64,000 nt of DNA from contig NZ_FSRU01000001.1 of assembly GCF_900142845.1 (NCBI RefSeq), positions 62,001-126,000 of the forward strand. The letters run 5' to 3'. Origin of the DNA: Paraburkholderia phenazinium (GTDB taxonomy: Bacteria; Pseudomonadota; Gammaproteobacteria; Burkholderiales; Burkholderiaceae). Positions 11,322 through 63,077 of the stretch are shown here, one piece after another. Position 1 is the first letter of the stretch. Every line of letters begins with the position of its first letter. A program made the translations under genes and the position numbers. The notes under the pieces were generated by a model. The model ran no database searches. It was not told where the DNA came from and saw only the letters and a program-made list of their open reading frames with translations.

Positions 11322-11333
11322 CGACCTGCTCCT

Positions 11334-15745: not shown

Positions 15746-16047
15746 GAAACCTCCAACTGCACTTTACGGTGGTGCGATACGTAGAAATACGGCTCGTGTG
15801 GAAGCGGGTCCGTCGGATCGCGGGTAAGGTCATACGGACCGACGCACAGTCTAAAGCAGTATATGGCGTCCGAGTTCAATCACCGCGCGTTGGCGACGAC
15901 GAAGAACTGAACCAAAGGGGATAGGGTAAGGCGGTGGCCGCAGGAGACCAGGCAAACGGGAAGAAACGTAGTCTCTACGAATGTAGCGGCGTGAGGATAT
16001 GACGCCAGACCAGCCGCTTGAACGACTGGCCTGGAAACAACGTGAAC
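15746..16047. other. Intergenic gap without recognised gene
   Basis: 302 bp between the VOC start and the end of the small 71-aa gene. It should hold the VOC promoter. I see no ORF with coding character, RNA or strong repeat. Confidence 0.4.
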
Positions 16048-41177: not shown

Positions 41178-41231
41178 AAAAGGAACCCTGAATGAAGATG
41201 ACGGATAACCCAACCTGTGTTGCGGGCCGCT

Positions 41232-42707
41232 TCAACGCTGCCAGCCACCGCCCAACGCCTTGAATACGGCGATCTGGTCGGACGAAATCTGCTCCGTCGA
41301 CGCAGCAAGCGCAGCGTCGGTCGTGACTAGTTCGCGCTCGGCATCGAGCACATCGAGGAAATCAAGCGCACCGGCTTTGTAGTTCAGCTCGGCCAGATCG
41401 AACGCGCGGGCATGTTGCTCGCGTGCCTGCTGCAGCGCGCGATGCCGGTCCCACTCCGCGCCGTACAACGTGAGCGCCTGTTCGGTTTCCTTCAGCGCGT
41501 TCAAGACGCTCGCGTCGAACGACGCGAGCGCCGCGGCGCTGTCGGCTTGCGCCTGTGCGAGCTTCGCGCGGCTTACCGCCATGTTCGGGAAATGCCAGCT
41601 AATCAGCGGGCCGATACCCCACGCGACGGCATATTCGTTACCGAGCGAGGCAAGACTGCCGCTCGTCGACAGCCAGTTCACCGAACCGCCGAGCACCACC
41701 GACGGATACAACTCCGCGGTCGCAACCCCAACCCGCGCGCTGGCCGCGGCAAGATGCCGTTCGGCCTCACGTAAGTCGGGACGACGCTTGAGAAGCGCAG
41801 CTCCGTCGCCAACCGGGAACGGCGTGGCGATCACCGGTGCGGCGACACACTGCGCGGCTTGCTCGGGAAAATCCGCCGGCGCGCGACCGGTCAGCACGGC
41901 GAGCTCGTACAGGGCTGCCCGCCGCTTGCCCTGCAGGGTAGGCAGCGTGGCGCGCGTGTCGTCGACAAACGCCTGCGCACGCACCACCTCGAGTTCCGAG
42001 ACGAGCCCTTGCGCACGCTGAAGCTGTGTCAGTTGAGCCACGCGGTCAGCGATCGCAAGCGAGCGTTGCGCAACCTCGATCTGCTCGCCATAGCTGCAGG
42101 CATGCGCATAGGCGTCCGTCGTCCCGGCGGCGACGGCGACCCGCAGCGCGTCGCGGGCGGCCTGCGTGGCGTCGGCGTCGGCCTGCGCGGAGGCAACCAG
42201 CTGGCGCACTCGACCCCACAGGTCGACTTCCCAGGAGATCGCCAGCGATGGCGCATAGGCCCAACGTGTTGGCGCGCTTCGGTGATCCGCCGCGGCGACG
42301 ATCTGGTCGGAACTCTGCTTGCCGTAGTTGCCGCCTAACGCGACCGCCGTATCGGGCAAGCGAGCCGCGCCCGCTTCATTCAATACCGCTTGTGCACGTT
42401 CCAGATGCGCTGCCGCGACGGCCAGATCCCGGTTCTGCGAGAGCGCCTCCTCAACGAGGCCGTTCAGCACCGGATCGCGATAGAGCTGCCACCACCGGTC
42501 CGCGGCGGGGTCGGTCGAGACCCGCGCTGCCGTGGTAGACACGAACGGCCGGCTCGCGGCATCCGGTACGGCCGGTTCGCGGTATGGCGCGCCGACTGTG
42601 CAGCCTGTCGCCACGCTCGCGAGCACGCCGAGGCACGTCATGCGCAGCGCATCGCCAAGGTGTCGTACAGCCGGTTTGAAGGAACGCCATGAGCGGAAAT
42701 GTGCCAT
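41232..42707 (-). CDS. NodT-family outer-membrane efflux lipoprotein
   Basis: 491 aa TolC-like outer-membrane factor. A lipobox (SVATGC, about residues 31-36) predicts lipidation at Cys after signal-peptidase II cleavage. Two repeated OEP domains (about 60-270 and 275-480) contain long helices and the LNGLVEEALSQNRDLAVAAAHLERAQ motif. First gene of the three-gene efflux operon. The start is ATG 42707, with TTG 42743 as an alternative. Divergent from an AraC regulator. Confidence 0.9.
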   Translation of the reverse strand: MAHFRSWRSFKPAVRHLGDALRMTCLGVLASVATGCTVGAPYREPAVPDAASRPFVSTTAARVSTDPAADRWWQLYRDPVLNGLVEEALSQNRDLAVAAAHLERAQAVLNEAGAARLPDTAVALGGNYGKQSSDQIVAAADHRSAPTRWAYAPSLAISWEVDLWGRVRQLVASAQADADATQAARDALRVAVAAGTTDAYAHACSYGEQIEVAQRSLAIADRVAQLTQLQRAQGLVSELEVVRAQAFVDDTRATLPTLQGKRRAALYELAVLTGRAPADFPEQAAQCVAAPVIATPFPVGDGAALLKRRPDLREAERHLAAASARVGVATAELYPSVVLGGSVNWLSTSGSLASLGNEYAVAWGIGPLISWHFPNMAVSRAKLAQAQADSAAALASFDASVLNALKETEQALTLYGAEWDRHRALQQAREQHARAFDLAELNYKAGALDFLDVLDAERELVTTDAALAASTEQISSDQIAVFKALGGGWQR

Positions 42708-42799
42708 CGATTGCCATGCGGTTCGGACAGGAGATGGCGGCAATGTTAATGTGACGTCTCCGGTTAATCTCGCGCAGAATCATCATTCATCGTCGCAAA

Positions 42800-43573
42800 A
42801 TGGACTTCCCTTCGACGGACATCGATCTGATGGAGCAAGCCTCCCTCGTCGCGGTCATCGCCACCGATCCTCCGGCGCGCACCGCATTCCCCCTGCACTC
42901 GCACCGGCAGGGGCAACTGATTCACGCCATCTCCGGTGTGATGATCGTGTGCTCGGAAGGCGGCAGTTGGGTCGTGCCGACCGGGCGCGCGGTGTGGGTG
43001 CCGGGAGGCACGCGGCACGAAATTCAGACCGCCGGCGAAGTGCAGATGCGCACCGTCTTCGTGGAGCCGGGCGTGCGCGCCGGCTTGCCGGATGCGTGCC
43101 GCGTCATCGGCGTGAGTACGCTGCTGCGCGAATTGATCGTGACGGCGGCCAAAATAGACGAGTACGCGGCCAATAGCCCGCGCGCGCACCGCATCATGGG
43201 GCTGATCCTCGACGAGATTGAGATCGCACCGGCCTTATCGCTGCACGTGCCCATGCCGCGGCATCCCGCGCTGGTCGAGTTGTGCACGCAGTTGATCAAT
43301 CAACCTTCGCTGCAGGTGACGCTCGCACATTGGGCGGACGAGGCGCATATGAACGAGCGCACGCTGGCGCGCACCTTCAGGCGCGAAACCGGCATGACCC
43401 AGGGCGCATGGTGCCGGCATGCGCGATTGCTGCTGAGCCTGCCGCGCCTCGCGGCGGGCGCGTCGATTCTCGAGCTCGCACTCGAGCATGGCTACGAGAG
43501 CCCGAGCGCGTTTGCCGCCATGTTTCGCAAGGCGCTCGGCGTGCCGCCGAGCGAATATTTCCGCAAGTCCTGA
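42800..43573 (+). CDS. AraC regulator with cupin sensor, likely controlling the efflux pump
   Basis: 257 aa. A cupin_2-type effector domain (about 20-95; FPLHSHRQGQLIHAISGVMIV, WVPGGTRHEI) precedes two helix-turn-helix units (about 160-255; VTLAHWADEAHMNERTLARTFRRETGM and ILELALEHGYESPSAFAAMFRKALGVPPSEYF). It lies 92 bp from the divergent NodT gene, so it probably regulates the pump in response to a small ligand. Confidence 0.9.
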   Translation: MDFPSTDIDLMEQASLVAVIATDPPARTAFPLHSHRQGQLIHAISGVMIVCSEGGSWVVPTGRAVWVPGGTRHEIQTAGEVQMRTVFVEPGVRAGLPDACRVIGVSTLLRELIVTAAKIDEYAANSPRAHRIMGLILDEIEIAPALSLHVPMPRHPALVELCTQLINQPSLQVTLAHWADEAHMNERTLARTFRRETGMTQGAWCRHARLLLSLPRLAAGASILELALEHGYESPSAFAAMFRKALGVPPSEYFRKS

Positions 43574-43721
43574 CGAGACACCACGCCCCCTCGCACGCTG
43601 TCCGTTTCGCGACGACCACTGGACCATTTGCGCGCGCGATGTCGCGCCGATCAACGCTACAGTGGGGCAACCAACACACTGAGCGACGCGCCGTGCACGA
43701 CGCCCGTGCGATCGCACCATC

Positions 43722-44690
43722 ATGGATCTGATTCAATGCATGCGGGTCTTCGTCGCCTTGACCGACGCCGGCAGTTTCACCACTACCGCGGAACAGCTTA
43801 GACTCTCGGCGCCGCAGGTCAGCCGGGCGGTCACATGGCTGGAAAACCATCTCGGTACGCGTCTGCTGAATCGCACCACGCGTTCAATGGCTCTGACCGA
43901 GGCCGGCGAGCAGTACCGCATCCGCACGCGCGAAATTTTGCATGCGCTGGATGCGTCGGAACGCGAAGCGAAGGGTTCGGTTCTGCATCCGCGCGGCCGC
44001 TTGCGCGTGCACTGCAGCGCGAGTCTCGCGAACCACTTCGTGATTCCGCTCGCCGCGCAATTTCAGGCACGCTACAACAACGTCAGCGTCGATCTCACGC
44101 TGGCGCCGAAGATGCCCGACCTGATTCGCGACGGCTACGACGTTGCGCTGGTCGCGATGGACAGCCTGCGTTCATCCGATCTGATCGCGATCAGCGTAGG
44201 GCGCATGGATAGCATACTGTGCGCAGCGCCGGCGTACATTGCCGAACACGGCTTGCCGCAAGTGCCCGCCGCGCTCGAACAGCACCGCTGCCTGCAACTG
44301 GTGGCGCCGGCCTATGAGGACAGGATCTGGAAGTTCGAAAGCGAAACGGGTTGCGAGATCGTGACGCTCGATCCCGCGTTCACGGTCGACGTCGGCGCAT
44401 CGCTCGCAATCGCGGTCAAGGCAGGAATGGGAATCGGCCTGCTGCCGCACTTCGTGGTGGCCGACGATCTGCAGTCGGGCGCGCTGGTGCGCGTGCTTCC
44501 CAGATATCGCCTCAACAGCATCGAGGTTTTTCTGGTCTATGCCTCGCGCCGGTATCTCGATGCGAAGATTCGCGCGTGGATCGATTTCATGAAGACGCAG
44601 TTGCGCCTTGCGCTGTCAGCGAGCTCGCCCCGTGAGACCGCGTCCCCTCGTCTGCGCCACAGCGCGCGCGATCTGACGGAAACGTCGTGA
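43722..44690 (+). CDS. LysR regulator
   Basis: 322 aa. The helix-turn-helix (1-60) reads MDLIQCMRVFVALTDAGSFT-type sequence with LSAPQVSRAVTWLENHLGTRLLNRTTRSM, the CrgA/DmlR-like subclass. Effector domain 90-295 and a polar 25-residue tail. It faces the hamE-like gene end to end (39 bp). It has no obvious divergent target, so the regulon is uncertain; the AraC/efflux pair and the ham cluster are the nearest candidates. Confidence 0.87.
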   Translation: MDLIQCMRVFVALTDAGSFTTTAEQLRLSAPQVSRAVTWLENHLGTRLLNRTTRSMALTEAGEQYRIRTREILHALDASEREAKGSVLHPRGRLRVHCSASLANHFVIPLAAQFQARYNNVSVDLTLAPKMPDLIRDGYDVALVAMDSLRSSDLIAISVGRMDSILCAAPAYIAEHGLPQVPAALEQHRCLQLVAPAYEDRIWKFESETGCEIVTLDPAFTVDVGASLAIAVKAGMGIGLLPHFVVADDLQSGALVRVLPRYRLNSIEVFLVYASRRYLDAKIRAWIDFMKTQLRLALSASSPRETASPRLRHSARDLTETS

Positions 44691-44729
44691 CGGCGCGCGC
44701 AAAGCACTCGCCGTCACGGATCGCAACGC

Positions 44730-45218
44730 TTACCTGGTGTTGAACAGGTTGCGCAGATTCGTCATGGCCATGTCGAGGAAGCCCGTCACGAACGCTTCGA
44801 ATTCGGGCTGGCTGCCAGTACCGCCCGCCCACGGCTCGCCCGCGATGTCCCACGTCACCGTGCACGCGTTTTCGCCGCGCGGCTCGGCACGCATCGAGGC
44901 CCACAGGTTGCCGATATCGAATGTCGTGTAAATCAGGCTCCACGTCATCACCATGGCGTCGTCGTCGTGCGTGTTCAATTGCTCGACAACGATGCTGCCG
45001 TCGGCAAACAGCTTCTTGCGCAGCGAGCGCACGCCGCTACCCGTCATCTCGGTGCGTTCGAGCCCCGTGATGAATTGGGCAAAGCCGGCAAAATCGCCGA
45101 CCACCTGCCATGCGGCACGTGCGGAGACGTCGAGTTCGGCACGGCCCGTCAGGATCGGTGTAGCCGGTGCGTAAATCAGAGTGGCGGGATGCAGCGCGGG
45201 ATTGGCTTTTTGCAGCAT
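44730..45218 (-). CDS. hamE: SRPBCC/polyketide cyclase-like protein (HamE/MgoD-like)
   Basis: 162 aa with the START/SRPBCC helix-grip fold (AELDVSARAAWQVVGDFAGFAQFITGLERTEM, MVMTWSLIYTTFDIGNLWASM). In the Burkholderia ham and Pseudomonas mgo clusters a protein of this type closes the operon; its exact reaction is not settled. GAGGAGA fixes ATG 45218. It lies 81 bp after the NRPS gene, in the same operon. Name assigned by position and fold, not by alignment. Confidence 0.78.
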   Translation of the reverse strand: MLQKANPALHPATLIYAPATPILTGRAELDVSARAAWQVVGDFAGFAQFITGLERTEMTGSGVRSLRKKLFADGSIVVEQLNTHDDDAMVMTWSLIYTTFDIGNLWASMRAEPRGENACTVTWDIAGEPWAGGTGSQPEFEAFVTGFLDMAMTNLRNLFNTR

Positions 45219-45299
45219 GGTATCTCCTCGGTAAGTAATGGACATCGGTAGCAAGGGAAAAACATCGCGCCCAGCTTCGCGCGGCGACGAACGCCGGTG

Positions 45300-48200
45300 T
45301 TACCACGCGGGTTCGGCGTCGTGCGGGTCGGCCGCGCGCGGGGCGCGGTCCACCATGGGCGTGTGCGGGTCAGGCGGCGGCAGGAAGCCGCAATCGATCA
45401 GATAGCGGAAGTGCTGGCCGAGCAGGCGTTCGTCCTTCTCCGGATAGGCGATGCCGAGACGCGCGAGCGTCGCCGCACTCCGCGCATGATCGATGACGGA
45501 CATATCGCCGATGTCGTCCTGACGGTCGTCGAGGTAGAACGCTACGACGTCGAACAGCGCGTTCGCTTCGTCGATCGACAGTAGACGGTTACGCCATGTC
45601 GCGGCGTCCTCCAGCACGAGCGGATAGCCAAGGCGTGCGAGTGCCTGCAGATAGCCGTTCCATGTCAGGGGCCGGGGATTGTGCAGATGGAACACGCGCT
45701 CGCTGCGGCGCGGGTCGAGCGTACAGCCGACAATCGCGCGGGCAAGAAAGTCCACCGGACTCAAATCGAACTGCGCCTCGCCACCCGGCGCAAAACCCAG
45801 TTGCACCGAGCCTTTGACGAGCAGCAGGATGCGGTTGCGTCCCGGCTGGCACAGGCCGGTCTGTGCATGTCCGGTGATATTGCCGGGCCGCAGGATCGTC
45901 GCATCGATGCCGCGTTGCACCGCCTCCCAGACGAGGTGCTCCGAAACCCACTTGGTCAGGTTGTACCCGTTATTGACGAACACGGGTGCATTCGTCCCCG
46001 GCGGCGCTTCGAGCACGTTGCCACGCGCATCGGTTGTGCTGGCTGCCGAGAGCGTCGATATGTAATGCAACGCCTTGCGGCGTCCTTCGCAGGCGAGACG
46101 CAGCAACGCGAGCGTCGAGCCGACATTCTCGTCGTAGAGGAACGGGTAGTCGTAGACGTGATTGACGTGCGCGCCGTTGTGGTAGATCGTGCCAATCTCG
46201 CCGGCCAGTCGTTGCCAGACGTCTTCGGCGAGACCGAGGCGAGGCTTCGCCAGGTCGCCGAGCAGAATACGGATGCGCGGATGGCCGCACAGGTGCTCCA
46301 TGCCATTGACGATCACCGCATCGTCGAGCCGGTGATGCGCTTCGGCCACGCTATGCGCCCGCACGACGCAATAGATCGGGCCGTCCGTTTTCGCGATCAG
46401 TTCATGCAGGATGAAGGTACCGAGAAAGCCGTTCGCACCTGTCAACAGCACGGCGCCACGCCCCGTTTCCTCATCGCGCGTGGATTGCGGCTGGATATCG
46501 CGCGGCAGGTGCCGGTCTTCGTGCACCCGCGCCGGGATGCGATCGCCCCGCTGCAGGTCGTCGTCGGTCAGCAGCGATGCGAGCGCCTCGATAGTGGGCT
46601 GCTCCATGAAACGCCCCAGCGGCGCGTTGCCGGCGAGTTCGCGCTTGACCGCCAGCATCAACCGTGAGACCAGCAGCGAGTGGCCGCCCAGTTCGAAGAA
46701 CGAATCCTGCCGGCCGATCTCGGCTGCATCGAGATCGAGCAATTGCGCCCACAGGTTGCGCAGATGACGTTCTGTCGCCGTGCGCGGCTCACAGGCATCG
46801 CCGCCCGTCGCGCACGCGCGGCTTAACGGCAGGCAGGCAAGCGCGGCACGGTCGATCTTGCCGTTGGGCGTGGCGGGCAAGATCTCCAGCTCGGCGATGT
46901 CGAACGGCATCATGTAGTCCGGCAATGACGCGGCGAGCGCGGTACGCAGCGCTTCGGCATTCCCGCTTGCGTGGGCAGGCTTCGCGACGAACACGCGAAT
47001 GCGCTTGCGTTCGTCGGCGATGGCCGCGCACTGCCGATACAACTGCGTGTCCAGCACCGCATTTTCGACTTCCCCCAGTTCGACGCGAAAGCCGCGAATC
47101 TTGATCTGCTTGTCGCGCCTGCCGATATACAGGAGGCTACCGTCGACGTCCCATTGCACGATGTCGCCCGTGCAGTACATCGTCGCGTCGCCCCCCGGTT
47201 CGGCCACAAAGCGTTCGGCGCTGAGCACCGGTTGCCCGAGGTAGCCCATGCCGACACCCGCCCCCGCAATATGGAGTTCGCCGGCCTGGCCGGTGCACAC
47301 AGGCCGGCCGTTGTCGTCGAGCACATAGCAGCGAACGTTCGCAATGGGCCGACCGATTCGCCGGTTATTGCTGCCGGCCTCCAGACGCGACGTGGTCGCC
47401 AGCACCGTGCACTCGGTTGGGCCGTAGATATTGTGGAACTGCCGGCCTGCGCTCCAGCGGGCGATCGTATCCGGATCGCAGACGTCGCCGCCCGTCACCA
47501 GATGCCGCAAGCTGGGCCATGCGCTGTCGGGCAGTGCGGCGAGCAGCGCGGGCGGCAGGAAAGCATGCGTCACGCGCTGCGCGTCGACCAGCGCCTGCAG
47601 CGCATCCAGTTCGCGGCGCTGCGTTTCCGTCGGCACAATGAGCGTACCGCCGGCGAGCCATGTCGGAAAGATATCGAGCAACGAGGCATCGAACGCAATG
47701 GTCGAAAACTGCAGCGCGCGTGTGCTTGCATCCAGCGCGCAGTGGTCGCGGTACCAGTGGCAAAAATGCACCAGGTTCCCATGCGACAACATCACGCCCT
47801 TCGGCACGCCGGTTGAACCGGACGTGTAGATCGCAATCGCGCATCGCGACGCCCGCTGCGCATCGAGCTCGATGGGCCACAGAGGCGACGGCAGCGTGGC
47901 ATCGGTGTTCGGCTGCGGCGCGTCGATCAGGCGAATCCCCATGCCCTCGAGCGCCGCGGCCTCAAACGACGCGTCGCTGACCAGCCCTTGTGCACCCGAT
48001 TCCTGGAGGATCAGGCGGATGCGTTCCGGCGGAAACGCCGGATCGAGCGGCACGCAGGCGGCGCCCGAGCCGAGGATGCCGAGCATCGCCGTATAGAGTG
48101 CCGCTGACTTCGGCAGGCACACCGCCACGACCTTCGGCGGCATGCCATGCGAGCCGGAGTGCAGCGCATGGGCGAAGCGCGCCGCGCGGGTCAGCAGAGC

Positions 48201-48863
48201 CTGGTAGTCGAGCGAACCGTCCGCGTCGATCAAGGCAGTCGCGCCGGGTGTGGCCTGAGTGGCCCGCGCTACCATCTCCGGCAACGACGGCTCACACGCG
48301 TAGTGACGGTGCGTCTCATTCGACGCATGCCAGCGCGCGAGCGCGGCGAGATCGAGCGGCTGCGCATAGCCGTTGTCGACGGGCGGATGCGGCGTATCGT
48401 CGAACAGGTCGCGCGCAATGCGGTTGACCACATCGGTGAGCAACTGCAGCGCGCCATGCTCGATCTCGCCGACCAGATCGGCGCCGCATACCGGCGCATC
48501 GAACTCGACAGTCTGCGTGGCCGCGACGCGCCAGTCATCCGGCGCATGCAGCAGATGCCATTCGAGCCGCACGCGCTGCGGCGGAACCTGCTCCGCAAGC
48601 GCGACAAAACGGAGCACGCGTGCCGCCGCGTCGCGAGCCTCGCATCCATCGGCAGCATGGGCCTCGCAGACAATCCGCCATGCGACCGGCGCCGAAGCAA
48701 CGCAGTCCGGCGACGCGACAAGGCCCAGTGCATCGGCCACATCGCGCAGCGGACCGGCCTGGTTATCGGCAACGCTAACCGTATGCCCGATCTCATGGAG
48801 TTCGGCCGCGATACTGGCCGCCAGCGGCGTCTGGCCGCTGATCGCAATCGTTATCGCTTTCAT
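45300..48863 (-). CDS. hamD: NRPS: (degenerate formyltransferase-like)-A-PCP-thioester reductase (HamD/MgoA-like)
   Basis: 1187 aa. Residues 1-160 resemble the ends of a formyltransferase-like module lacking its middle. The adenylation domain spans about 195-680: A3 at 346-357 (YTSGSTGVPKG), A5 YGPTE, A8 GRRDKQIKIRGFR, A10 NGKIDR with K669. Substrate-pocket residues read D392 A393 L396 F435 V456 G458 I479 V487 L488 K669, a hydrophobic pocket compatible with an aliphatic amino acid. The PCP has S729 (LGGHSLL). The reductase domain (about 803-1187) has TGANGFLG (808-815) and YNLTK, giving reductive release as aldehyde or alcohol. This fits valine/leucine-derived diazeniumdiolate synthesis. It starts 10 bp after hamC. 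Confidence 0.88.
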   Translation of the reverse strand: MKAITIAISGQTPLAASIAAELHEIGHTVSVADNQAGPLRDVADALGLVASPDCVASAPVAWRIVCEAHAADGCEARDAAARVLRFVALAEQVPPQRVRLEWHLLHAPDDWRVAATQTVEFDAPVCGADLVGEIEHGALQLLTDVVNRIARDLFDDTPHPPVDNGYAQPLDLAALARWHASNETHRHYACEPSLPEMVARATQATPGATALIDADGSLDYQALLTRAARFAHALHSGSHGMPPKVVAVCLPKSAALYTAMLGILGSGAACVPLDPAFPPERIRLILQESGAQGLVSDASFEAAALEGMGIRLIDAPQPNTDATLPSPLWPIELDAQRASRCAIAIYTSGSTGVPKGVMLSHGNLVHFCHWYRDHCALDASTRALQFSTIAFDASLLDIFPTWLAGGTLIVPTETQRRELDALQALVDAQRVTHAFLPPALLAALPDSAWPSLRHLVTGGDVCDPDTIARWSAGRQFHNIYGPTECTVLATTSRLEAGSNNRRIGRPIANVRCYVLDDNGRPVCTGQAGELHIAGAGVGMGYLGQPVLSAERFVAEPGGDATMYCTGDIVQWDVDGSLLYIGRRDKQIKIRGFRVELGEVENAVLDTQLYRQCAAIADERKRIRVFVAKPAHASGNAEALRTALAASLPDYMMPFDIAELEILPATPNGKIDRAALACLPLSRACATGGDACEPRTATERHLRNLWAQLLDLDAAEIGRQDSFFELGGHSLLVSRLMLAVKRELAGNAPLGRFMEQPTIEALASLLTDDDLQRGDRIPARVHEDRHLPRDIQPQSTRDEETGRGAVLLTGANGFLGTFILHELIAKTDGPIYCVVRAHSVAEAHHRLDDAVIVNGMEHLCGHPRIRILLGDLAKPRLGLAEDVWQRLAGEIGTIYHNGAHVNHVYDYPFLYDENVGSTLALLRLACEGRRKALHYISTLSAASTTDARGNVLEAPPGTNAPVFVNNGYNLTKWVSEHLVWEAVQRGIDATILRPGNITGHAQTGLCQPGRNRILLLVKGSVQLGFAPGGEAQFDLSPVDFLARAIVGCTLDPRRSERVFHLHNPRPLTWNGYLQALARLGYPLVLEDAATWRNRLLSIDEANALFDVVAFYLDDRQDDIGDMSVIDHARSAATLARLGIAYPEKDERLLGQHFRYLIDCGFLPPPDPHTPMVDRAPRAADPHDAEPAW

Positions 48864-48873
48864 GGCTTCACCG

Positions 48874-49800
48874 TCATAGAACGCTCGCCAGCGCCGCACG
48901 GGTCGGCGCATGATCGAGCAGCCCGCTCAGTTTGAAGAAATTGCGGATATTGACGATCATCGGATGCTGGCTCGTGATCGGATAGGCGCCGACCATGTCG
49001 CCCGCGATCTCGCGTCGCGTAGCCGCGGGCAGATCCAGTGCGTCGATCAGACGGCGGTCAAATGCGAGCTGCAGTTCGGCGCTCAGGTACTCCTTCAGGA
49101 AGACAGGCAGTGTTTCGCCGAGCGCGCTGCGCGCCGCTTCGTCGATCTCGCTCCAGTAAAGCTTCACGAGGTTGATCCAGAACACCGAGTGGCGCCCCTC
49201 GTCCGCGAGGTGATCGGACATGACGCCCTTGACCGAGCGCTTTAACGTCGTGTCGCGCGAAAACGCCGCGACTTCGGCGGTCACCGTGTTCTCCGAGATC
49301 GCGACGGCGAGCAGTTCCATGCCGTCGCGGTACGGCGGCGCGACGCGTTCCAATGCGCGCGGGATGGCGCGCGACAGCTCGATCTCGTGGTTCGCCGCAA
49401 GCGCGGCGACACCGGTATGCACTTCGACCTGGCGCAGATAGTCCATCGCAACGTACGCGTGATAATCCTCGTCGATGACCACGGACATCGCATCATGCCT
49501 GCAGGCAAACGGGAAATCGTGGGCGAAGCGGCCGCGGGCGATCTTAAGCGCGGTCGCGTTGACGATCTCCGTTTCGAAGATGATGACGTCGTTGATGTAC
49601 TTGTAGAAGCTCTGCAACAGGATGAAGTCCCGCACGGCGTCGCCCGCATCGACGATCGCCGGATGCGCGCATAGCGGTTGACGCTCGAGCGGGTAGTAGT
49701 GCAAACCGTCGTCCTCGACGATACGCCGGGGGCGCGAGCGGATCGTTGCACGCTGCTCCCACGACTCGGCGTGACTCTTGTAACTCTGCAATGTCATCAT
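48874..49800 (-). CDS. hamC: AurF-type diiron N-oxygenase (HamC/MgoC-like)
   Basis: 308 aa, p-aminobenzoate N-oxygenase family, oxidising an amine through a nonheme diiron centre. All ligand positions can be placed: E76/E78 (FETEIV), E111 and H114 (DEDYH), E170 (ISENT), and H197, E201, H204 (HLADEGRH). In the ham pathway it is thought to make the N-oxygenated amine needed for the diazeniumdiolate. ATG 49800 has AGGAA 9 nt upstream. It lies 11 bp after hamB and 10 bp before hamD. Confidence 0.88.
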   Translation of the reverse strand: MMTLQSYKSHAESWEQRATIRSRPRRIVEDDGLHYYPLERQPLCAHPAIVDAGDAVRDFILLQSFYKYINDVIIFETEIVNATALKIARGRFAHDFPFACRHDAMSVVIDEDYHAYVAMDYLRQVEVHTGVAALAANHEIELSRAIPRALERVAPPYRDGMELLAVAISENTVTAEVAAFSRDTTLKRSVKGVMSDHLADEGRHSVFWINLVKLYWSEIDEAARSALGETLPVFLKEYLSAELQLAFDRRLIDALDLPAATRREIAGDMVGAYPITSQHPMIVNIRNFFKLSGLLDHAPTRAALASVL

Positions 49801-49811
49801 CGCAATCGTTC

Positions 49812-50183
49812 CTACGCGTCGTAGTAATGGATCTCGAGCAGCACGCAACCTGCTTCGCTGCTGAACGGTCCGTGTTCGGTGCCGGCCGGCCGGACAAAGT
49901 AAGTGCCCGTCAGGTGCGTGTCGCGACGCTCAAACGTTGCCACGTCGAGGCGGCTCTGATCGCCGCTCACAAGGTAGACCTCCTCGTGATAGTCGTGCAG
50001 GAACGGCACGCGTGTCGCGGCGCCCGGCGCGAAGCGCACGAGCCGGGTACGCATGCCACGCTTCGCGCGTTCGTCCAGCGTATCGACGACCACCAGCTGA
50101 TCGATCCCATGATCGAAATGGCGTGGATGCTCCCAGTGGATGTCCGCCACATCCAGAATGCGTTCTGCGAGCTTGACGTTCAT
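49812..50183 (-). CDS. hamB: Small cupin protein (HamB-like)
   Basis: 123 aa cupin_2 barrel. [16 protein letters not shown] gives the H-x-H-E-type metal set, and [14 protein letters not shown] supplies the second motif with His. It may bind a metal and act in N-N bond formation or be an accessory enzyme; the reaction is unknown. Its ATG overlaps the hamA stop (ATGA), so translation is coupled. The operon position matches the cupin in the fragin cluster. Confidence 0.82.
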
Positions 50184-50962
50184 GCGGCCACCGTCTTGCG
50201 TGTCTGGTTGAGATGGGCAAGCAGACCGTCCCAGAGCTGCAGGCGCTCGTCGATTGCGGCAATGCCCGCCTCGAGCGCCTGCTGCAATTTGCCCGGGTCG
50301 TCGCCCGCAGCTTCGCGGATCATGGCCTGCGCCGCAGGACCGTGTTCACCCGAATCGACTTCGATATGCCGGTCGAGGTAATAGGTCAGCAGCGGCGTCG
50401 AGGTGCGGTCGATCTTCCATTCGTCGAGCAGCGTGCGGAACATGTCAGGAATGACGTTCTCGCGGCCATAGAAAAAGTTGCCGAGAACCTGATGCGTCTT
50501 GCCGTCGAAACACGTTGCCATCGTTGCCGTGACGAACTGCCGGACGGGAGCCGGCGGCGCGACCGTCGACAGCGCAGCCGACACGGTGAAACCCGAGCGC
50601 AGCAGCGAGATCAGGTGTTCGATGCTGCCGGTCGACGCACCGACGTCGCGCATTGCGTGCAGATACAGATCGAAATGGCTCATGTATCCGCGCGGCGTTT
50701 CGTCCGTCTCTTCGCCCAGCACGATTTCGTTGATCAGGCGCGCGGCGTTGATATTGCGCGGTGCGATCCACGGCACGGCAACGGTGGTGAAGTCGAGCTG
50801 CAGACGCTTGACGAGCGACATGAAGTCCCACACAGCGAACACGTGCCACTCCATGAAGGTCCGCAATTCCTCGATGGTGCGAATCGAGCTGAATACCGGA
50901 TGGTGTGTGAGCCTGGCGTGCTGCTCCTTGATCTTCGCTTCCAACAAGTCGATTTGATTCAC
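50180..50962 (-). CDS. hamA: DUF3050 / heme-oxygenase-like protein (HamA/MgoB-like)
   Basis: 260 aa starting at GTG 50962, fixed by GAGGAA about 8 nt upstream; ATG 50986 has no such site. The protein is helical with several His and Glu ([40 protein letters not shown]), consistent with a heme-oxygenase-like diiron fold. The MgoB/HamA homologues head these operons. First gene of the hamABCDE-like operon, divergent from hamF. The HDO iron ligands could not be verified without alignment. Confidence 0.8.
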
Positions 50963-51402
50963 GATGAGGTTCCTCGATAAGAGCATATGGAGAGGCTGTG
51001 CCGTCGCCATCGCCGGCGCGACACAGTTGACACGGATATTCCAGCCTACGGATATTGCGGCAGCAGTCCCGTTTTGAAACAGAACAATTCCAGCACGCAC
51101 GGCAATATTAATTGCCAAAACTGAACATCGCCTATTCAAATCGGACATTCTCATATTATTTCTGGTCAAGTTTTAATCGAATCGACCGCATTCCTTTACA
51201 GATAAGGCTTTCCGGCCAATCAACATAATCCTTGGCGTGCTTGACAGCATATTCCACGCATGACTAGCATGTGCCCACCAAAATCCCGTGTTGCGAATCA
51301 CGCAAACCTATAAATGGTATTTTTGTGACCCCTTGATTGATTTTACAAATCAGAATCCAGAAGATCTCGCGAGTACAAAGCAATAAACCACAGGAGAGAA
51401 AT
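50963..51402. promoter_or_regulatory. Divergent hamA/hamF promoter region
   Basis: 440 bp. CTGT (50996-50999) plus GTCGC (51003-51007) pair with GCGAC plus ACAG (51018-51026), a bulged hairpin in the hamA leader. TTGACA (51241-51246) with TAGCAT (51265-51270, 18-bp gap) is a candidate promoter toward hamF. TGATTT-tac-AAATCA (51338-51352) is a 6-bp inverted repeat 50 bp before the hamF ATG. The stretch is much richer in A/T than the flanking genes, particularly 51100-51350. No perfect lux box was found here. Confidence 0.5.
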
Positions 51403-52779
51403 ATGAGTGGCTCAATCAGGAAATTGCCGCTTTCCGCGCCGCAACTCGATTTCTGGGAAGCTGCGCAGGCTTACGCGGTGCCCTCGACCAACATTTACGC
51501 GGCCGAATACCTCGATATTCGCGGACCGCTCGATCAGCAACGCTTCGAACGCGCGCTGCGACAGGTCATCGACGAGGCCGAGACGCTGCATACCGTACGC
51601 TTTGCCGAGGCCGTCGACGGGCCGGTGCGCATCGTCGACGATACGGTCGGCGCGAACTGGGCGTTGCTGTATCGGGATCTGAGCGGCGTGCACGATGCAC
51701 ACTCACAGGCGCTTGCACAGATGCGCGACCATTACTCGCGCACAATCGAACTGGAGCATGGGCCGTTTTTCGCGTACATCCTTTTCAAGCTCGACGACAA
51801 CCGGTACTACTGGTATCAGGGCTACGCGCACATCGTCGTCGACGGCTACTCGTGCAGTCTGCTTGCCACGCGCGTCGCCGAGGTCTACAGCGCGCTGTAC
51901 GCCGGCTTGCCGACACCGCCCTGCCGCTTCGCGTCGCTCGAAGCGCTCATGGAAGACGAGCGCTCGTATCGCGACTCCGCGCAGTACACCGAGGATCGCC
52001 GCTATTGGCTGAGCCGTTTCGCGGACCACCCTCGCACCACCACGCTCGCCGGCCCGGCGCTGTTGCCCGAGCGCGACTCGCTGCCGGACATGCGCGAGAC
52101 CCGCTACGCGCAACCCGGCCAGCACGCGCGCATTGAGACCGTAGCGAAGGATCTGTTCAAGTCGACGGTCCCTCAACTGATTACTGCGCTGACGGCCGCC
52201 TACATTCATCTGCAAACCGGCGCACACGACGTAGTGCTCGCCGTGACCGCCATGGCGCGTGCGTCGTCGCGCGAGCGGCGCACGCCCTGCGAGACGGCGA
52301 ACATGCTGCCGCTGCGCCTGTCGGTCGAACCTTCGAACACGCTCGACGAACTGTGCCGGCAAGCGAATCAGGAGATGACCGCGTTGCGTCGGCATCAACG
52401 CTACCGCATGGGCGACCTGCACCGTGAACTGGTGTCGCTCGACAATGGGCAAGGCGTGTTCGGCACCGAGATCAACATCATGTCGTTCGACTACGACCTG
52501 GCCTTCGCCACAAGCCGGGCCACGTCGCACAACCTGGCCGTCGGTATCACCGACGACTTCATGGTGAATCTGACCGACCGTCGCAACGGCGAGCCGCTGC
52601 GCTTCGATTTCGATGCCAGCCCGCAGTACTACCGGCGCGCCGATCTGAACGCACACGTCACGCGGTTTCTGGCACTCGCCCAGGCCGCGCTGGATGCCCC
52701 CGAAGCGCCGCTGCGTGAGCTCGATGCCCGCCTCGAAGCGCAACCCGACTGGCGGCCGGCGCTTGCGCCGGCGGTCTAA
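51403..52779 (+). CDS. hamF: Free-standing condensation-domain protein (HamF-like)
   Basis: 458 aa, a single NRPS condensation domain. The HHxxxDG motif reads A142-H143-I-V-V-D147-G148, so the catalytic second His and Asp are kept and the first His is Ala. PLSAPQLDFWEAAQAY (C1) and the ARASSRERRTPCETANMLPLRL segment (C5-like) are present. It has no adenylation or carrier domain, so it must act on substrates in trans. In the fragin pathway this protein is believed to attach a fatty acyl group. AGGAGAG is 6 nt before the ATG. Followed 12 bp later by the aminotransferase. Confidence 0.87.
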   Translation: MSGSIRKLPLSAPQLDFWEAAQAYAVPSTNIYAAEYLDIRGPLDQQRFERALRQVIDEAETLHTVRFAEAVDGPVRIVDDTVGANWALLYRDLSGVHDAHSQALAQMRDHYSRTIELEHGPFFAYILFKLDDNRYYWYQGYAHIVVDGYSCSLLATRVAEVYSALYAGLPTPPCRFASLEALMEDERSYRDSAQYTEDRRYWLSRFADHPRTTTLAGPALLPERDSLPDMRETRYAQPGQHARIETVAKDLFKSTVPQLITALTAAYIHLQTGAHDVVLAVTAMARASSRERRTPCETANMLPLRLSVEPSNTLDELCRQANQEMTALRRHQRYRMGDLHRELVSLDNGQGVFGTEINIMSFDYDLAFATSRATSHNLAVGITDDFMVNLTDRRNGEPLRFDFDASPQYYRRADLNAHVTRFLALAQAALDAPEAPLRELDARLEAQPDWRPALAPAV

Positions 52780-52791
52780 CCGACCGATCGC

Positions 52792-54159
52792 TTGCCACCC
52801 CCTCACTGGAGTCCAATCATGGCTTACAAGGAATCACGCTTCTGGCATCCGCGCCAGCATCCGGTCGCAGCGGCAACGGGAAAGCCCGTGCGGATCGTTC
52901 GCGGCGAAGGCTGTTTTCTCTACGACGACACCGGCCGGCCATTGCTGGATGCGGTTGCATCGCTCTTTAACGTGTATGTCGGACACGGCCGCCGGGAGAT
53001 CAAGGAGGCGATCCTGCGCCAACTCGACGAGCTCGAGTACCACCCGGTCTTCGCCGGTTTCAGCCATCCGCGCGCAGAAGAACTGTCGGCGCGTCTGGTT
53101 GGGATGCTCGAACCCGAGGACATGCGGCGCGTGATCTTCGGTTCCGGCGGTTCGGACGCGGTCGAGGCCGCGTTGATGATCGCGCGGCAATACTGGAAGG
53201 TCGCCGGAGAACCCGAGCGCACCAAGTTCATCTCGTTGAAGCAGAGTTATCACGGTTCGCACTTCGGCGGCAGTTCGGTGACCGGCAACACCGCGTACCG
53301 GCGCAACTACGAGCCGGTGCTCGCCGGCTGCTTTCACGTCGAGACGCCGTGGATCTACCGCAACCCGTTCACACACGATCCCGAGGAGTTGGGGCGTACA
53401 TGCGCCGCGCTGCTCGAGCGTGAGATTGTGTTTCAGGGCCCCGGCACGGTTGCGGCGTTCATCGCGGAACCGGTGCAGGCTACCGGCGGCATCATCGTGC
53501 CGCCCGCGAACTACTGGCCGCTCGTGCGGGAAGTCTGCAACCGCCACGGTGTGCTGTTGATCGCCGATGAAGTCGTGACCGGCTTCGGGCGCACCGGCGC
53601 GCTGTTCGGCAGTCGCGGCTGGGGCGTCGCGCCGGACATCATGTGCTTTGCGAAAGGAGTGTCCTCGGGATACCTGCCGCTGGGTGCAACGCTTGTCAAC
53701 CGGCGTATCGAGGAAGCGTTCGCCGGGAATCCCGGCGCTGCGGGCACGCTGATGCACGGCTACACCTACGCGGGTCACCCCATCGTCTGTGCAGCGGCGC
53801 TTGCGAACCTGCAGATCGTGATTGACGAAAATCTCACGGCCAATGCCGCGCAGCAAGGCGCATATCTGCTCGAACGCCTGCAGCCGCTGGTGGATCGTTA
53901 CCCCGTGGTCGGCGACGTGCGGGGCAAGGGGCTGCTAGTCGGCATCGATCTGGTGAAAAGCAAGGAAACGCGCGAGCCGATCGATCCCGCAGACGGCTAC
54001 GGCGCCGCGCTGGCGGAAGCCACGCGCGAAGCAGGCGTGCTGATTCGCTCGCTCGGCAACCGGCTCGCAATCGCACCGCCGCTGATCATCGACCGCGCTC
54101 AAGTGGACATGATCGTCGCGGCAATCGAGCACGCATTCGAGCGCGTGCGGCGCGACTGA
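52792..54159 (+). CDS. hamG: Class III PLP aminotransferase (HamG-like)
   Basis: 455 aa fold-type I PLP enzyme of the class III group. GSGGSDAVEAALMIARQYW (about 113-131), FIAEPVQATGGIIVPP, IADEVVTGFGRTG and the PLP Lys in FAKGVSSGYLPLGA are typical. In hamFG it is thought to provide the amine that is acylated by HamF. RBS is within the 12-bp gap from hamF (CTGGAG). Full length. Name from synteny. Confidence 0.85.
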   Translation: MPPPHWSPIMAYKESRFWHPRQHPVAAATGKPVRIVRGEGCFLYDDTGRPLLDAVASLFNVYVGHGRREIKEAILRQLDELEYHPVFAGFSHPRAEELSARLVGMLEPEDMRRVIFGSGGSDAVEAALMIARQYWKVAGEPERTKFISLKQSYHGSHFGGSSVTGNTAYRRNYEPVLAGCFHVETPWIYRNPFTHDPEELGRTCAALLEREIVFQGPGTVAAFIAEPVQATGGIIVPPANYWPLVREVCNRHGVLLIADEVVTGFGRTGALFGSRGWGVAPDIMCFAKGVSSGYLPLGATLVNRRIEEAFAGNPGAAGTLMHGYTYAGHPIVCAAALANLQIVIDENLTANAAQQGAYLLERLQPLVDRYPVVGDVRGKGLLVGIDLVKSKETREPIDPADGYGAALAEATREAGVLIRSLGNRLAIAPPLIIDRAQVDMIVAAIEHAFERVRRD

Positions 54160-54166
54160 GTCCGCG

Positions 54167-54194
54167 TGCGCCGGGGTCGGGCCGATCCGGCGCA
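54167..54194. terminator. Hairpin between hamG and convergent araC
   Basis: TGCGCCGG (54167-54174) pairs perfectly with CCGGCGCA (54187-54194) around a 12-nt loop, 8 bp after the hamG stop. There is no U-tract, so it is a weak or Rho-assisted terminator that could serve both converging genes. Confidence 0.4.
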
Positions 54195-54253
54195 AGACAC
54201 ACCGCCCGAAGCGCAGGATGGGTACGCCGCGCGACGGGCAGCGTGCAATGCGA

Positions 54254-55081
54254 TCAGCCCGGCGAGCCGTTCGGCGTGTCGAAGTACTGGCTCGGCGACA
54301 CGCCGAAGGTGCGCCTGAACGTCGCCGCGTAAGTCGTGGCGCTGCGATAGCCGACCTGATGCGCCGCCTGGGTAACCCGGCCGCCGCTTGCCAGAAGCAC
54401 AAGCGACATCGACATACGGAGCTGCTGACGCCATGCCGCAACGCTCATGCCGGTCTCGCTGCGAAAGAGACGAGCCAGATGTCGCGGGCTTAAGGCCACG
54501 TCGCGGGCGAGCGAATCGAGTGGCTGCTCGCAATGCGGTTCGCGCTGCAAGCGCTCGCACAGCTTGACGAGCCGGCGGTCCTCGGGCATCGGCAGGCTGA
54601 GCGGCGTCTGCGACAGCATCTGCAGTTCCTGGGCGATCAGCACAGCGCATGCGTTCTCGCCTGGTGTACCGGAGTCGAGAATCTCATCGTAGACGCGCGG
54701 CGCGAGTTCTCGCAGCAACGGCGAGACCTTGACCGCGCAGACCTGCCACGGTAACGACACGCACAGCGTGGCGCCGAAGTAAAGCGAACAGAGCTCTGCG
54801 TTACCGACCACGCGCAGCGCATGCACCACCTGTGGCGGAATCCAGATTGCGCGCATGGGCGGCGCAATCCAGCGCGTACCCGCGACGTCCAGCACCAGGA
54901 CCCCGCTGCGCGCGAAGAGCAACTGACCATATGTATGGGCATGCGCTTCGTATTCGGTTTCGAAAACCTGCGGGGCACGCGTACGTGCCACGCTGCCGCT
55001 GACGCTTGGCCGGATTCCGGCAAACGCAAAGGTACGCGCCGGCGCGAGTCGCTCGGGCGACTTCTCGGGAAAATATGTCAT
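54254..55081 (-). CDS. AraC regulator next to the ham cluster
   Basis: 275 aa. A cupin sensor (about 25-110; YEAHAHTYGQLLFARSGVLVLDV, WIPPQVVHALRV) precedes two helix-turn-helix units (about 175-270; LDSLARDVALSPRHLARLFRSETGMSVAAWRQQLR, VTQAAHQVGYRSATTYAATFRRTFGVSPSQYF). ATG 55081 has AGGA 8 nt upstream. It is downstream of the class V aminotransferase gene on the same strand (109-bp gap) and convergent to hamG. It may control either operon. Confidence 0.88.
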   Translation of the reverse strand: MTYFPEKSPERLAPARTFAFAGIRPSVSGSVARTRAPQVFETEYEAHAHTYGQLLFARSGVLVLDVAGTRWIAPPMRAIWIPPQVVHALRVVGNAELCSLYFGATLCVSLPWQVCAVKVSPLLRELAPRVYDEILDSGTPGENACAVLIAQELQMLSQTPLSLPMPEDRRLVKLCERLQREPHCEQPLDSLARDVALSPRHLARLFRSETGMSVAAWRQQLRMSMSLVLLASGGRVTQAAHQVGYRSATTYAATFRRTFGVSPSQYFDTPNGSPG

Positions 55082-55190
55082 GAGGCGTTTCCTGATGGGG
55101 CTGATGAGAGTTGCGTGGACAACAGCAGACGGCGGCACGCGAACACGCCCGCGCTGCCGCGACGTGGCCTGTGCCTGTGCCTGTGTGCGG

Positions 55191-56486
55191 CTATTCGGGT
55201 TGCACCTCGGGTTCCTCCGCCGGCACGCTCGCGTCCCGCATGCGCGTGTAGCCGGACGGAGGATTCGGCAGCAATCGCACGCGGCCAGACGCTGCGTCGT
55301 TAAGGAGCCGCTTCGTGACAGCAAGCGCGGCGGCGAGATCCGCCTCGTAGTGCTGCTCGGCGAGGGCCGCCGCGAGCGCCCGCAAGGTGCGCAGCAGATT
55401 CGGCGCACGGCACTGCTCGGCCATTTGCCCAATTCGCACGATGTCGAGACCGAACGCGCCCGATATGTCGACGCCCGACTCGCGACTCATCGATTCACGC
55501 AGCGCACGCGCATCGACACCGTCCGGCAGACGCACGCCAAGCACTGTCTGCAAGCGCACGCCTGGCTCGACCGCGAACGAGAGGCCGAGTGCGCGCAAGC
55601 CGGCCTGCAACGCATGAGAGCAACGCCGGTGCCGCAGGAAACGCTCATCCGGTGTTTCCTCACAATACAGCCGCAGCGCTTCATGAAGTGCGAGGATCCC
55701 CGGCACCGGCGCCGTATAGTGATAGGCACGCCGCAACCAGAAATCCGCTGCGAGCCGAGCGTCGAGACACCAGTGCGCCGAGGCTTCGCGACGCGCTTCG
55801 ATGCGAGCGCACGCGCGCGGCGAGAACGCGACCAGCGCCACACCGGGAATCGCGCCCAATGCCTTCTGTCCTCCCACGACGGCGGCGTCGATGTGCCAGT
55901 CCGCCATCTGGAACGGCATCGCGCCCAGGGTACAAACGGCATCGACCAGAACAAGGCAGCCTTGTGCCCGCGCAATTCTGCAGATTTCCGGCAATGCGGT
56001 GTTATGCACAGTGTGCGAAGTCTCACCGTGACAGATTGTCAACACGCCATAGCGACCGCGGCGCAGTTCGCGAGCGACGTCGTCGGCAGCGGCGGCATGA
56101 AATGGCGGTGTTGTGAGTCGGACCACGTCGCCCCCCGCACGCGCAGCCATCTCCGCGATCCGCATGCCGAAGTGGCCATTGCAGACGGACAGCACACGCG
56201 TCGCGGGCGTGACCAGATTCGACACGGCCATCTCGAGGCCCGCCGAAGCGGGGCCCGCCACGCCGAGAATCGTTGCGTCGGAACTCTGGAACAGATATGC
56301 CCCCATCTGCATAACCTGCTCCAGCACGGTATCCATCGTGCTGCCGAGGTGATTGATCATCAGCGTGTTCGCGCGGGCGACGGAATCGGCAAGCGGCACG
56401 GGTCCCGCACCCATCAGGAGCGGCAGTTCGCCGGCGAGCAGATCGTCGACCCGTACGATGTCGTGTACAGACTTGAATCCCAGCAT
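55191..56486 (-). CDS. Class V PLP aminotransferase (alanine-glyoxylate/pyridoxamine-pyruvate type)
   Basis: 431 aa fold-type I enzyme. GPVPLADSVARANTLMINHLGSTMDTVLEQV resembles the N-terminus of alanine-glyoxylate and pyridoxamine-pyruvate transaminases; VLVDAVCTLGAMPFQMADWHIDAAVVGGQKALGA contains the PLP Asp and Lys. A C-terminal extension of about 50 residues (380-431) is not usual. GGAGA fixes ATG 56486. The promoter region holds a perfect lux-box-like palindrome 87 bp upstream, shared with the divergent luxR. Not a member of published ham clusters as far as I recall. Confidence 0.87.
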   Translation of the reverse strand: MLGFKSVHDIVRVDDLLAGELPLLMGAGPVPLADSVARANTLMINHLGSTMDTVLEQVMQMGAYLFQSSDATILGVAGPASAGLEMAVSNLVTPATRVLSVCNGHFGMRIAEMAARAGGDVVRLTTPPFHAAAADDVARELRRGRYGVLTICHGETSHTVHNTALPEICRIARAQGCLVLVDAVCTLGAMPFQMADWHIDAAVVGGQKALGAIPGVALVAFSPRACARIEARREASAHWCLDARLAADFWLRRAYHYTAPVPGILALHEALRLYCEETPDERFLRHRRCSHALQAGLRALGLSFAVEPGVRLQTVLGVRLPDGVDARALRESMSRESGVDISGAFGLDIVRIGQMAEQCRAPNLLRTLRALAAALAEQHYEADLAAALAVTKRLLNDAASGRVRLLPNPPSGYTRMRDASVPAEEPEVQPE

Positions 56487-56573
56487 TCCATATCTCCGGC
56501 AGACGGTTAAAGAAGGAGGGCGTCGCATCACTCACAGGTAGCAGATTGAACACGTATTTCCACTACAACAAAA

Positions 56574-56589
56574 CTGTCCTTTAGGACAG
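56574..56589. promoter_or_regulatory. Perfect lux-box-like palindrome
   Basis: CTGTCCT-TT-AGGACAG is a perfect dyad with the CTGT-N8-ACAG form of the Vibrio lux box and the CT-N12-AG form of Las/Rhl boxes. It lies 87 bp from the aminotransferase start and 69 bp from the LuxR start, the expected distance for a quorum-sensing activator. It is the best regulator site in the window. Confidence 0.75.
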
Positions 56590-56658
56590 GCCCACGGCCG
56601 GCATCGTCGAACGCCGCTTGCGTTGAGAGCCGCAGCCGTGCTCTACGAGAGATACAAC

Positions 56659-57372
56659 ATGGACACGCTGGATGAGGTTTTCGAGCAGTTGCAGCACCAG
56701 CAAAACGCCGAAGACGCGTTTGCGGTAATCAGGAATGCGGCCGCGGCACTAGGCTTTCCCTACTGCACGTATGGGCGGCGCAGCGCGATGCCGTTGGCGC
56801 GGCCCGAGGTGCAAATCCTGAGCAATTACCCGGTGGCGTGGCAGCAGCGTTATATCGAACGCGGTTACGCGGCGCGAGACCCGTCTGTACGCCGCGCCGC
56901 CCGAGCGAAGCAACCGGTCATCTGGCAAGCTAAAGAGGAATCCGAAGAATTGCAGTTCTGGGATGAAGCGGTGAGCTTCGGTCTGCGGTACGGCTGGGCG
57001 CAAGCGAGCTACGATTGCTCGTCGAATCTCGGCCTGCTGAGTCTCGTGCGCGAAACGGAACCCATCACGCTAGCCGAAGTGCGGAGCCGACGGGCGGCAT
57101 GTGCAGCGCTCGCCGAGGCTGCCCATTTGCACCTGATGCCGCTACTCGCAGGCGCCCCGCCGATCGCATTGACGGCGGACCGCTTGACGTCGCGTGAGCG
57201 CGAGGTGCTGACATGGACCGCTGATGGCAAGACCGCGTTCGAAATCGGCCAGATCCTCGGCACAGCCGAGCGGACCGTCAAGTTTCATCTACAGAACGCG
57301 GTCGTCAAACTGGACGCAAGAAACAAGACCCATGCGGCGACGAAAGCGCTATTGCTGGGATGGCTGGTTTGA
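56659..57372 (+). CDS. LuxR-type AHL receptor/transcription factor (solo in window)
   Basis: 237 aa. The autoinducer-binding domain (about 10-160) keeps the TraR pocket residues W61, Y65, D74 and W89 (TraR W57, Y61, D70, W85). The LuxR helix-turn-helix (about 172-232) has LTSREREVLTWTADGKTAFEIGQILGTAERTVKFHLQNAVVKL. ATG 56659 has GAGAGA 6 nt upstream. No luxI gene is present in the window, so it is either a solo or pairs with a distant synthase. It is divergent from the class V aminotransferase and probably binds the intervening lux box. Confidence 0.92.
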   Translation: MDTLDEVFEQLQHQQNAEDAFAVIRNAAAALGFPYCTYGRRSAMPLARPEVQILSNYPVAWQQRYIERGYAARDPSVRRAARAKQPVIWQAKEESEELQFWDEAVSFGLRYGWAQASYDCSSNLGLLSLVRETEPITLAEVRSRRAACAALAEAAHLHLMPLLAGAPPIALTADRLTSREREVLTWTADGKTAFEIGQILGTAERTVKFHLQNAVVKLDARNKTHAATKALLLGWLV

Positions 57373-57394
57373 GCAGCAACGGAGATCGGGTATC

Positions 57395-57928: not shown

Positions 57929-57949
57929 GCCAAGTCACGACCGGTCGAA

Positions 57950-58939: not shown

Positions 58940-58961
58940 CATTCCCGAATGTAGATTCACT

Positions 58962-60790: not shown

Positions 60791-60802
60791 GAAATCTCCT
60801 CC

Positions 60803-62278: not shown

Positions 62279-62298
62279 GTACTTTCCTCTGCAAGAAC

Positions 62299-63069: not shown

Positions 63070-63077
63070 CGTATTCC

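Follow-up and report, generated by a model that had tools for sequence, protein, structure and literature searches.

What is encoded between positions 44730 and 54159 of a 64,000-nucleotide stretch of Paraburkholderia phenazinium DNA, and how might it be controlled? We call the whole of this stretch the window, and all coordinates are positions in it. A preliminary description had read the region as a diazeniumdiolate locus on the hamABCDE/hamFG plan, in two divergent operons. Sequence comparison gives good support to a complete ham cluster, a cluster type that is already known, and we consider it very probable that its products are valdiazen, a signal, and fragin, an antifungal metallophore, or a close analogue. 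New here is a candidate control site, an element of 31 bp that lies between hamA and hamF. The main reference was locus L156 (NZ_CP091013.1), a named Burkholderia cenocepacia record. The B. cenocepacia ham cluster for fragin and valdiazen is cited as BGC0001599 in PMC11705231.

Gene content and order of the locus

All seven open reading frames (ORFs) are present where the preliminary description had placed them, and the protein families that it had named were found by Pfam, each above its curated cut-off. The reverse strand carries hamE (44730..45254, SRPBCC/polyketide-cyclase-like; Polyketide_cyc2, PF10604, expectation value (E) 3.5e-13), hamD (45300..48863, a nonribosomal peptide synthetase (NRPS)), hamC (48874..49800, an AurF-type diiron N-oxygenase; PF11583, E 1.9e-16), hamB (49812..50183, a cupin; Cupin_7, PF12973, E 5.4e-7), and hamA (50180..50962, a DUF3050 enzyme; PF11251, E 2.6e-85). 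The forward strand carries hamF (51403..52779, a free-standing condensation domain; PF00668, E 1.3e-49) and hamG (52819..54159, a class III aminotransferase; Aminotran_3, PF00202, E 1.3e-96). In HamD, a formyltransferase-like fold (48267-48863) precedes the adenylation (A), peptidyl carrier protein (PCP), and thioester reductase domains, which were matched in Pfam/NCBIfam as AMP-binding, PP-binding, and NAD_binding_4. Although the ORF positions stand, several start sites needed correction. The start of hamA is most likely the GTG at 50962, not 51169, because the ortholog in PDB 9vwb, which opens with MNQLEGLERK, can be aligned from its first residue onward. The start of hamF is the ATG at 51403, preceded by GGAGAG. 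From the translations, the most likely starts of hamG, hamC, and hamD are the ATG at 52819, 49800, and 48863, and that of hamE is probably inside its ORF.

When each protein was aligned with B. cenocepacia HamA-G, all seven paired one-to-one at 63-86% identity, and both the order and the orientation of the genes match L156 and the plan given in PMC5878181. The identities to L156 are 77.7% for HamA, 70.5% for HamB, 82.7% for HamC, 63.4% for HamD (residues 186-1203), 71.3% for HamE, 66.0% for HamF, and 85.9% for HamG, the best conserved of the set; HamF is 67% identical to the named B. cenocepacia protein P0004. The region between 44730 and 54159 does contain the seven genes, but the conserved unit is larger and extends at least from 38470 to 57372, with flanking regulators and a pump conserved as well. 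Orthology, gene order, the divergent operons, these neighbors, the HamA fold, and the HamC ligands all concur in the ham interpretation. In the window, neither Rfam nor a tRNA search gave a match.

The HamA model has a predicted local distance difference test score of 92 and superimposes on PDB 9vwb with a template-modeling (TM) score of 0.93 and a root-mean-square deviation (rmsd) of 1.1, at 75% identity; in the sequence comparison, the match has E 6e-137. That entry, released 2025-11-12 and titled HamA, a Heme-Oxygenase-Like Enzyme, is an ortholog of the window protein and not the same protein; compared by eye, its sequence is that of HamA from locus L144. By this match, HamA has a heme-oxygenase-like fold in the model; the next structural matches include CADD, UndA, and HrmI. 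The diiron site of HamC, described earlier as complete, is indeed so: in the alignment with AurF (PDB 3chh), all seven ligand positions of AurF are conserved. HamA relatives also occur by themselves. Trinickia terrae locus L004 (20.8 kb) has one at 10010-10786, 79% identical, with no other ham match, stand-alone DUF3050 genes are found in Lysobacter and Brevibacillus loci, and 20 of 80 named loci have no hamC match.

The hamA-hamF spacer and the flanking regulators

The 31-bp element occupies 51132..51162 of the divergent promoter region. Relative to the hamA start it is placed upstream, by 170-200 bp in the window and by about 150-180 bp in L156. It agrees with the Burkholderia sequence at 29 of 31 positions in the window, at all 31 in L144, L145, and L156, and at 30, 28, and 26 in L146, L151, and L147. 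Against this, 31-column segments across the spacer, compared between the window and B. cenocepacia, have a mean of 17 identical columns (standard deviation 3.5); with the element excluded, identity across the remaining 342 columns of the spacer is 63%.

A 26-bp core with up to three mismatches occurs once in the whole genome from which the window comes. The family search covered an even sample of 398 genomes from a larger group, with only a few first-look candidates scored per genome. The core was found in five of them, in single copy: G288, which has a decayed locus, and the four genomes whose HamF is full length. Within the genomes searched, its occurrences are confined to ham loci. A reversed control pattern gave no match among those listed, and G338, the source of L147, escapes the search at the three-mismatch limit. 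In the window itself, the 26-base pattern was found once against 0.00 expected. A 14-base core with three mismatches was found 4 times against 3.67 expected, which is not above chance, and the claim for the element therefore rests on the 26-base pattern and on conservation.

What might the element be? A terminator scan of 50900-51450 gave none. A leader peptide was considered, because a short frame ending in LFSIDA and a stop follows the element in L144, L145, L146, L151, and L156, with a variant in L147. The window does not have this frame. Since it keeps the bases but not the frame, the element is more likely a DNA or RNA site. The single genomic copy also speaks against a regulon-wide motif. 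A promoter-like site for hamF, TTGACA-18-TAGCAT, is present at 51241..51270 on the forward strand; it is one of two such sites in 50900-51450 (0.8 expected), both on the forward strand and neither overlapping the element, and TTGACA and TAGGAT hexamers are also present in the Burkholderia spacers. In 60 upstream stretches of Pandoraea and Pseudomonas operons, for which there was no shuffled control, no close match to the element was seen, the best being 14-20 of 31. Pseudomonas loci of the pvf/mgo type have an inverted repeat, GAGTGAGGCATTCACTC, at 266-475 bp before the start of the hamA match. Of the 51 Pseudomonas loci that carry both hamA and hamC, 34 have it at 15 or more of 17 positions; none of nine others does. 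In its variants, GAGCGA...TCGCTC and GAACGA...TCGTTC, both arms change together.

Together with the element, seven genes make up eight conserved neighboring features. On the reverse strand is a tripartite efflux pump (MFS, HlyD, and OEP at 38470-40056, 40053-41213, and 41232-42743; 82%, 68%, and 66% identical to L156). Then come an AraC-type regulator, AraC2 (42800..43573, forward, 76.7% identical to its B. cenocepacia neighbor), and a LysR-type regulator, LysR1 (43722..44690, forward, 61.8%). Beyond hamG are a second AraC-type regulator, AraC1 (reverse), in the position of CepS, whose stretch homologous to B. cenocepacia is 54254..54955 (68.9%), and a LuxR-type regulator in the position of CepR2 (56623..57372, forward; PF03472 and PF00196; 56.1%). 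We take BCAM0190-0196 to be the ham genes of B. cenocepacia. Their expression is lower in a cepR mutant, as stated in an extract of PMC3426421. The neighbors of a ham cluster, CepR2 and CepS, a LysR regulator, and the tripartite pump, all have counterparts in the window; in PMC5878181, these genes and a LeuA homolog around ham are described as activated by valdiazen.

Of these regulators, AraC2 is present in all four element-bearing loci that reach far enough to be checked (the window, L156, L147, and L151); the sequences of L144-L146 end before its position. AraC1 is absent from L151, and LysR1 from both L147 and L151. AraC2 and AraC1 are candidates for acting at the element, and no more than candidates. 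The passages on valdiazen consulted in the published papers name neither a valdiazen receptor nor a DNA site. A tentative proposal, which we hold to be possible but rather less than probable, is that the element is the cis switch through which valdiazen, sensed by a co-inherited regulator (AraC2 or AraC1 being the best candidates), drives both ham operons. By this proposal, the element, regulators, pump, and seven genes would have been one inherited unit before the Burkholderia group diversified, and the signal-only hamA-E locus would have arisen by loss of hamFG.

The predicted product and its alternatives

The ham pathway is described in sections of PMC5878181 and PMC11659414. The gene content, orthology, conserved residues and folds, synteny, and spacer element come from the present comparison, whereas the substrate, chemistry, product, and regulation are carried over from the B. 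cenocepacia papers. HamD would load L-valine onto its own carrier, and HamC would oxidize the tethered amine to the hydroxylamine. The second nitrogen would then be put in to give the diazeniumdiolate, a step thought to involve the heme-oxygenase-like HamA together with HamE. The reductase domain of HamD would free the aldehyde, which would sit as a dihydrosydnone N-oxide. Reduction of the aldehyde would give valdiazen, perhaps by an enzyme outside ham. In the other branch, HamG would transaminate the aldehyde and HamF would N-acylate the resulting amine, with octanoyl in fragin, while HamB probably raises the yield of fragin. Both ham promoters would be under valdiazen feedback, here probably with the flanking LuxR, AraC, and LysR proteins and the 31-bp element. 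The product is probably exported through the pump. An aldo/keto reductase gene adjoins the pump in the window (37555-38436), with no match in L156. It is a weak candidate for the valdiazen step, because the relevant passage of PMC11659414 suggests that this reductase lies outside ham.

The A, PCP, and reductase motifs were all found in HamD. Its specificity code, read at positions placed by eye with GrsA landmarks as a guide, is DALFVGIVLK, and all 10 residues are the same in the four Burkholderia-group loci L144-L147 and in L156. Because the code equals the Burkholderia one and hamB, hamF, and hamG are present, valine-derived valdiazen and fragin are the favored products. Among 65 HamD relatives, the identical code occurs in 10, namely L144-L147, locus L013 from a metagenome-assembled genome (MAG), and five Pseudomonas loci. 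Nine other rows, Pandoraea-like or from the same family, have DVLFLGIVLK (6) or DVLFLGIVFK (3). A second class of Pseudomonas loci has DSIF-GLVLK; the locus of Pseudomonas viridiflava, a member of the Pseudomonas syringae complex, has DSIFVGLVLK and is without hamB, hamF, and hamG.

Several observations weigh against the assignment to valdiazen and fragin. HamD is the most diverged of the seven proteins (63%), and its code alone does not point to fragin, because the five Pseudomonas loci that share it are without hamF and hamG. A matching code does not prove the substrate, and we infer the activation of L-valine; for MgoA, the signature gave no substrate prediction, according to a passage of PMC3945005. 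HamF has the motif YAHIVVDG, in which the first His of HHxxxDG is absent, as it is in six aligned relatives (seven of seven sequences), and its acyl preference cannot be read from the sequence. Of nine Burkholderia strains, eight are reported in PMC5878181 to have LeuA next to CepR2, and no Pfam match to LeuA was found in the eight ORFs tested here, from 56623 to 63881. LeuA is a frequent neighbor and not a biosynthetic ham gene. Finally, a class V aminotransferase gene (55191..56486, reverse; PF00266, E 4e-18) sits between AraC1 and LuxR as an extra.

Could this aminotransferase, or a different acyl preference of HamF, turn the same pathway toward a fragin analogue? The enzyme has no match in the Burkholderia-group loci compared (L144-147 and L156), and HamF is only 66-67% identical to the Burkholderia proteins. 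Among the 120 of 2134 relatives listed, those at 78-99% identity are the window's own entries and one outside protein, at 78%. Its contig has 67,853 bases, exactly as long as the contig with an 87% HamF, and the aminotransferase and HamF may therefore travel together. However, its gene lies outside both ham operons, behind that of AraC1, and the other outside relatives listed, at 52-57%, are named as alanine/serine-glyoxylate-type transaminases. We consider an altered end product unlikely.

Less probable still is a fragin branch that is silent or minor, with pyrazine N-oxides as the main product of the operon or valdiazen as the only one. Pyrazine N-oxides are ascribed to ham in B. cenocepacia K56-2 in a passage of PMC12186260, and dihydropyrazine N-oxides are made by pvf enzymes according to one of PMC10194917. 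In the window, however, the frames of hamB, hamF, and hamG are open, and no ham protein is better conserved than HamG, which argues that the fragin branch is in use.

Could the locus be an operon of the mgo type for a leudiazen-like signal, which, to judge by the name, would derive from leucine? In favor of this, homologues of hamA, hamC, hamD, and hamE are shared with the Pseudomonas operons. An mgo operon has four genes, no hamB, hamF, or hamG, and, by our assignment, a DSIF-class code. The window, by contrast, has hamB, hamF, and hamG, its code is not of the DSIF class of P. viridiflava and other Pseudomonas (for which leucine use would itself be presumed), and its HamD groups with Burkholderia and not with Pseudomonas. 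Leudiazen is disfavored and seems very improbable here. An unrelated AurF-NRPS pathway that merely resembles ham can be dismissed: such a cluster does exist elsewhere in the same genome (L152), but its proteins are 24-30% identical to ham proteins, compared with 63-86% in one-to-one order for the window set. That cluster (C1:980000-999900, at 9041-15907) consists of a class III aminotransferase (Aminotran_3), an AurF protein, and a 1474-aa NRPS with A, PCP, condensation, and reductase domains.

What is the N-terminal part of HamD? Residues 17-215 gave no useful Pfam match (best E 0.13). A model built with 34 relatives has a predicted local distance difference test score of 88, and its best PDB match is methionyl-tRNA formyltransferase (E 5.9e-7, TM score 0.61, rmsd 5.2, 13% identity); formyltransferases are the majority among the best 50 structural matches listed. 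The usual catalytic set of formyltransferases is Asn-His-Asp. The invariant columns in the 35 sequences are M1, G26, H27, G127, H179, and N182, among which this set is not recognizable, and we therefore infer a non-catalytic, formyltransferase-like domain that has not been annotated. HamD is given as A-T-R in PMC5878181, in the main text of which no word starts with formyl. No title on such a domain of HamD, PvfC, or MgoA appears among the 12 of 52 literature matches listed, which is weak evidence.

Distribution and history of the cluster

The cluster resembles B. cenocepacia ham in its seven genes, their order, the divergent operons, the LuxR, AraC, LysR, AraC2, and pump neighbors, the HamD code, and the element. 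It differs in its genus, in that LeuA was not found beside LuxR, in the extra class V aminotransferase, and in a HamD of 63% identity. In the family search, HamC was found in 32 of 398 genomes at E <=1e-30 and HamF in 38 at 1e-40. Only four HamF proteins are full length with 64-100% identity: that of the window genome and those of three genomes of genus g12 (64-66%), where they stand beside hamA-E. We assign g12 to Burkholderia on the grounds that its three full loci have hamA-hamF spacers nearly equal to that of the named B. cenocepacia record. G288, also of g12, has a 165-residue HamF piece (58%), and the remaining matches are at 29-42%. Within the window's own genus, HamF was found at 1e-100 in one of 144 genomes, and hamACDE is carried by two sampled genomes, G207 and G275. 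A protein search with 7999 candidates scored gave HamF relatives of at least 61% identity in the window cluster, B. cenocepacia, B. alba, B. stagnalis, a B. plantarii MAG, and two others. For Paraburkholderia busanensis P39, an extract of PMC10715207 reports a cluster with 50% similarity to that for fragin, so that a fragin-like cluster in this genus is already in print.

Partial clusters are more widespread. The 51 Pseudomonas and seven Pandoraea loci with hamA and hamC, which include pvf/mgo-type operons and hamACDE loci, resemble the window in having HamA, HamC, HamD, and HamE homologues in the same order, but they have no hamF or hamG match, hamB is found in 2/51 and 0/7, and most of their HamD codes are different. 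Reports of hamABCDE in B. plantarii and B. glumae are found in PMC5878181. Locus L147 (g12) has hamA-E in the same order, the pump, AraC2, AraC1, LuxR, and a related element (26/31), but differs from the window in having no hamF or hamG match. In L151 (G288), the ham locus at 3004-10486 is decayed: hamB, hamA, the pump, and AraC2 are kept, the last two matched over most of their length, hamF and LuxR remain as pieces by tblastn, and the element still matches at 28/31. Locus L013, from a Gammaproteobacteria MAG, has all seven ham genes on one strand (750-12851); a gene for a phosphopantetheinyl transferase separates hamE from hamF, and upstream are genes for a LuxI-type synthase, a DUF4902 protein, and LuxR.

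A HamD tree of 30 sequences, chosen from 66 rows, places the window protein as sister to L144-L147 with support of 99/98. L147 is nested with L144-L146, as sister to these three full clusters, and the window is outside. Because the window HamD branches outside the four Burkholderia-group proteins, hamFG was probably lost in the L147 lineage; the full-ham label (the window and L144-L146) needs two changes on this tree, which fit one loss but also two gains. In this tree, L144-L147 failed the composition test, and L013, which has hamF and hamG, is on a long branch and was not labeled full-ham.

The finding of a full ham cluster outside the genus of the other full copies found widens the range of the antifungal metallophore and its signal. 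At the same time, comparison across the distance between genera singles out, within the divergent promoter, one 31-bp sequence that has hardly changed.

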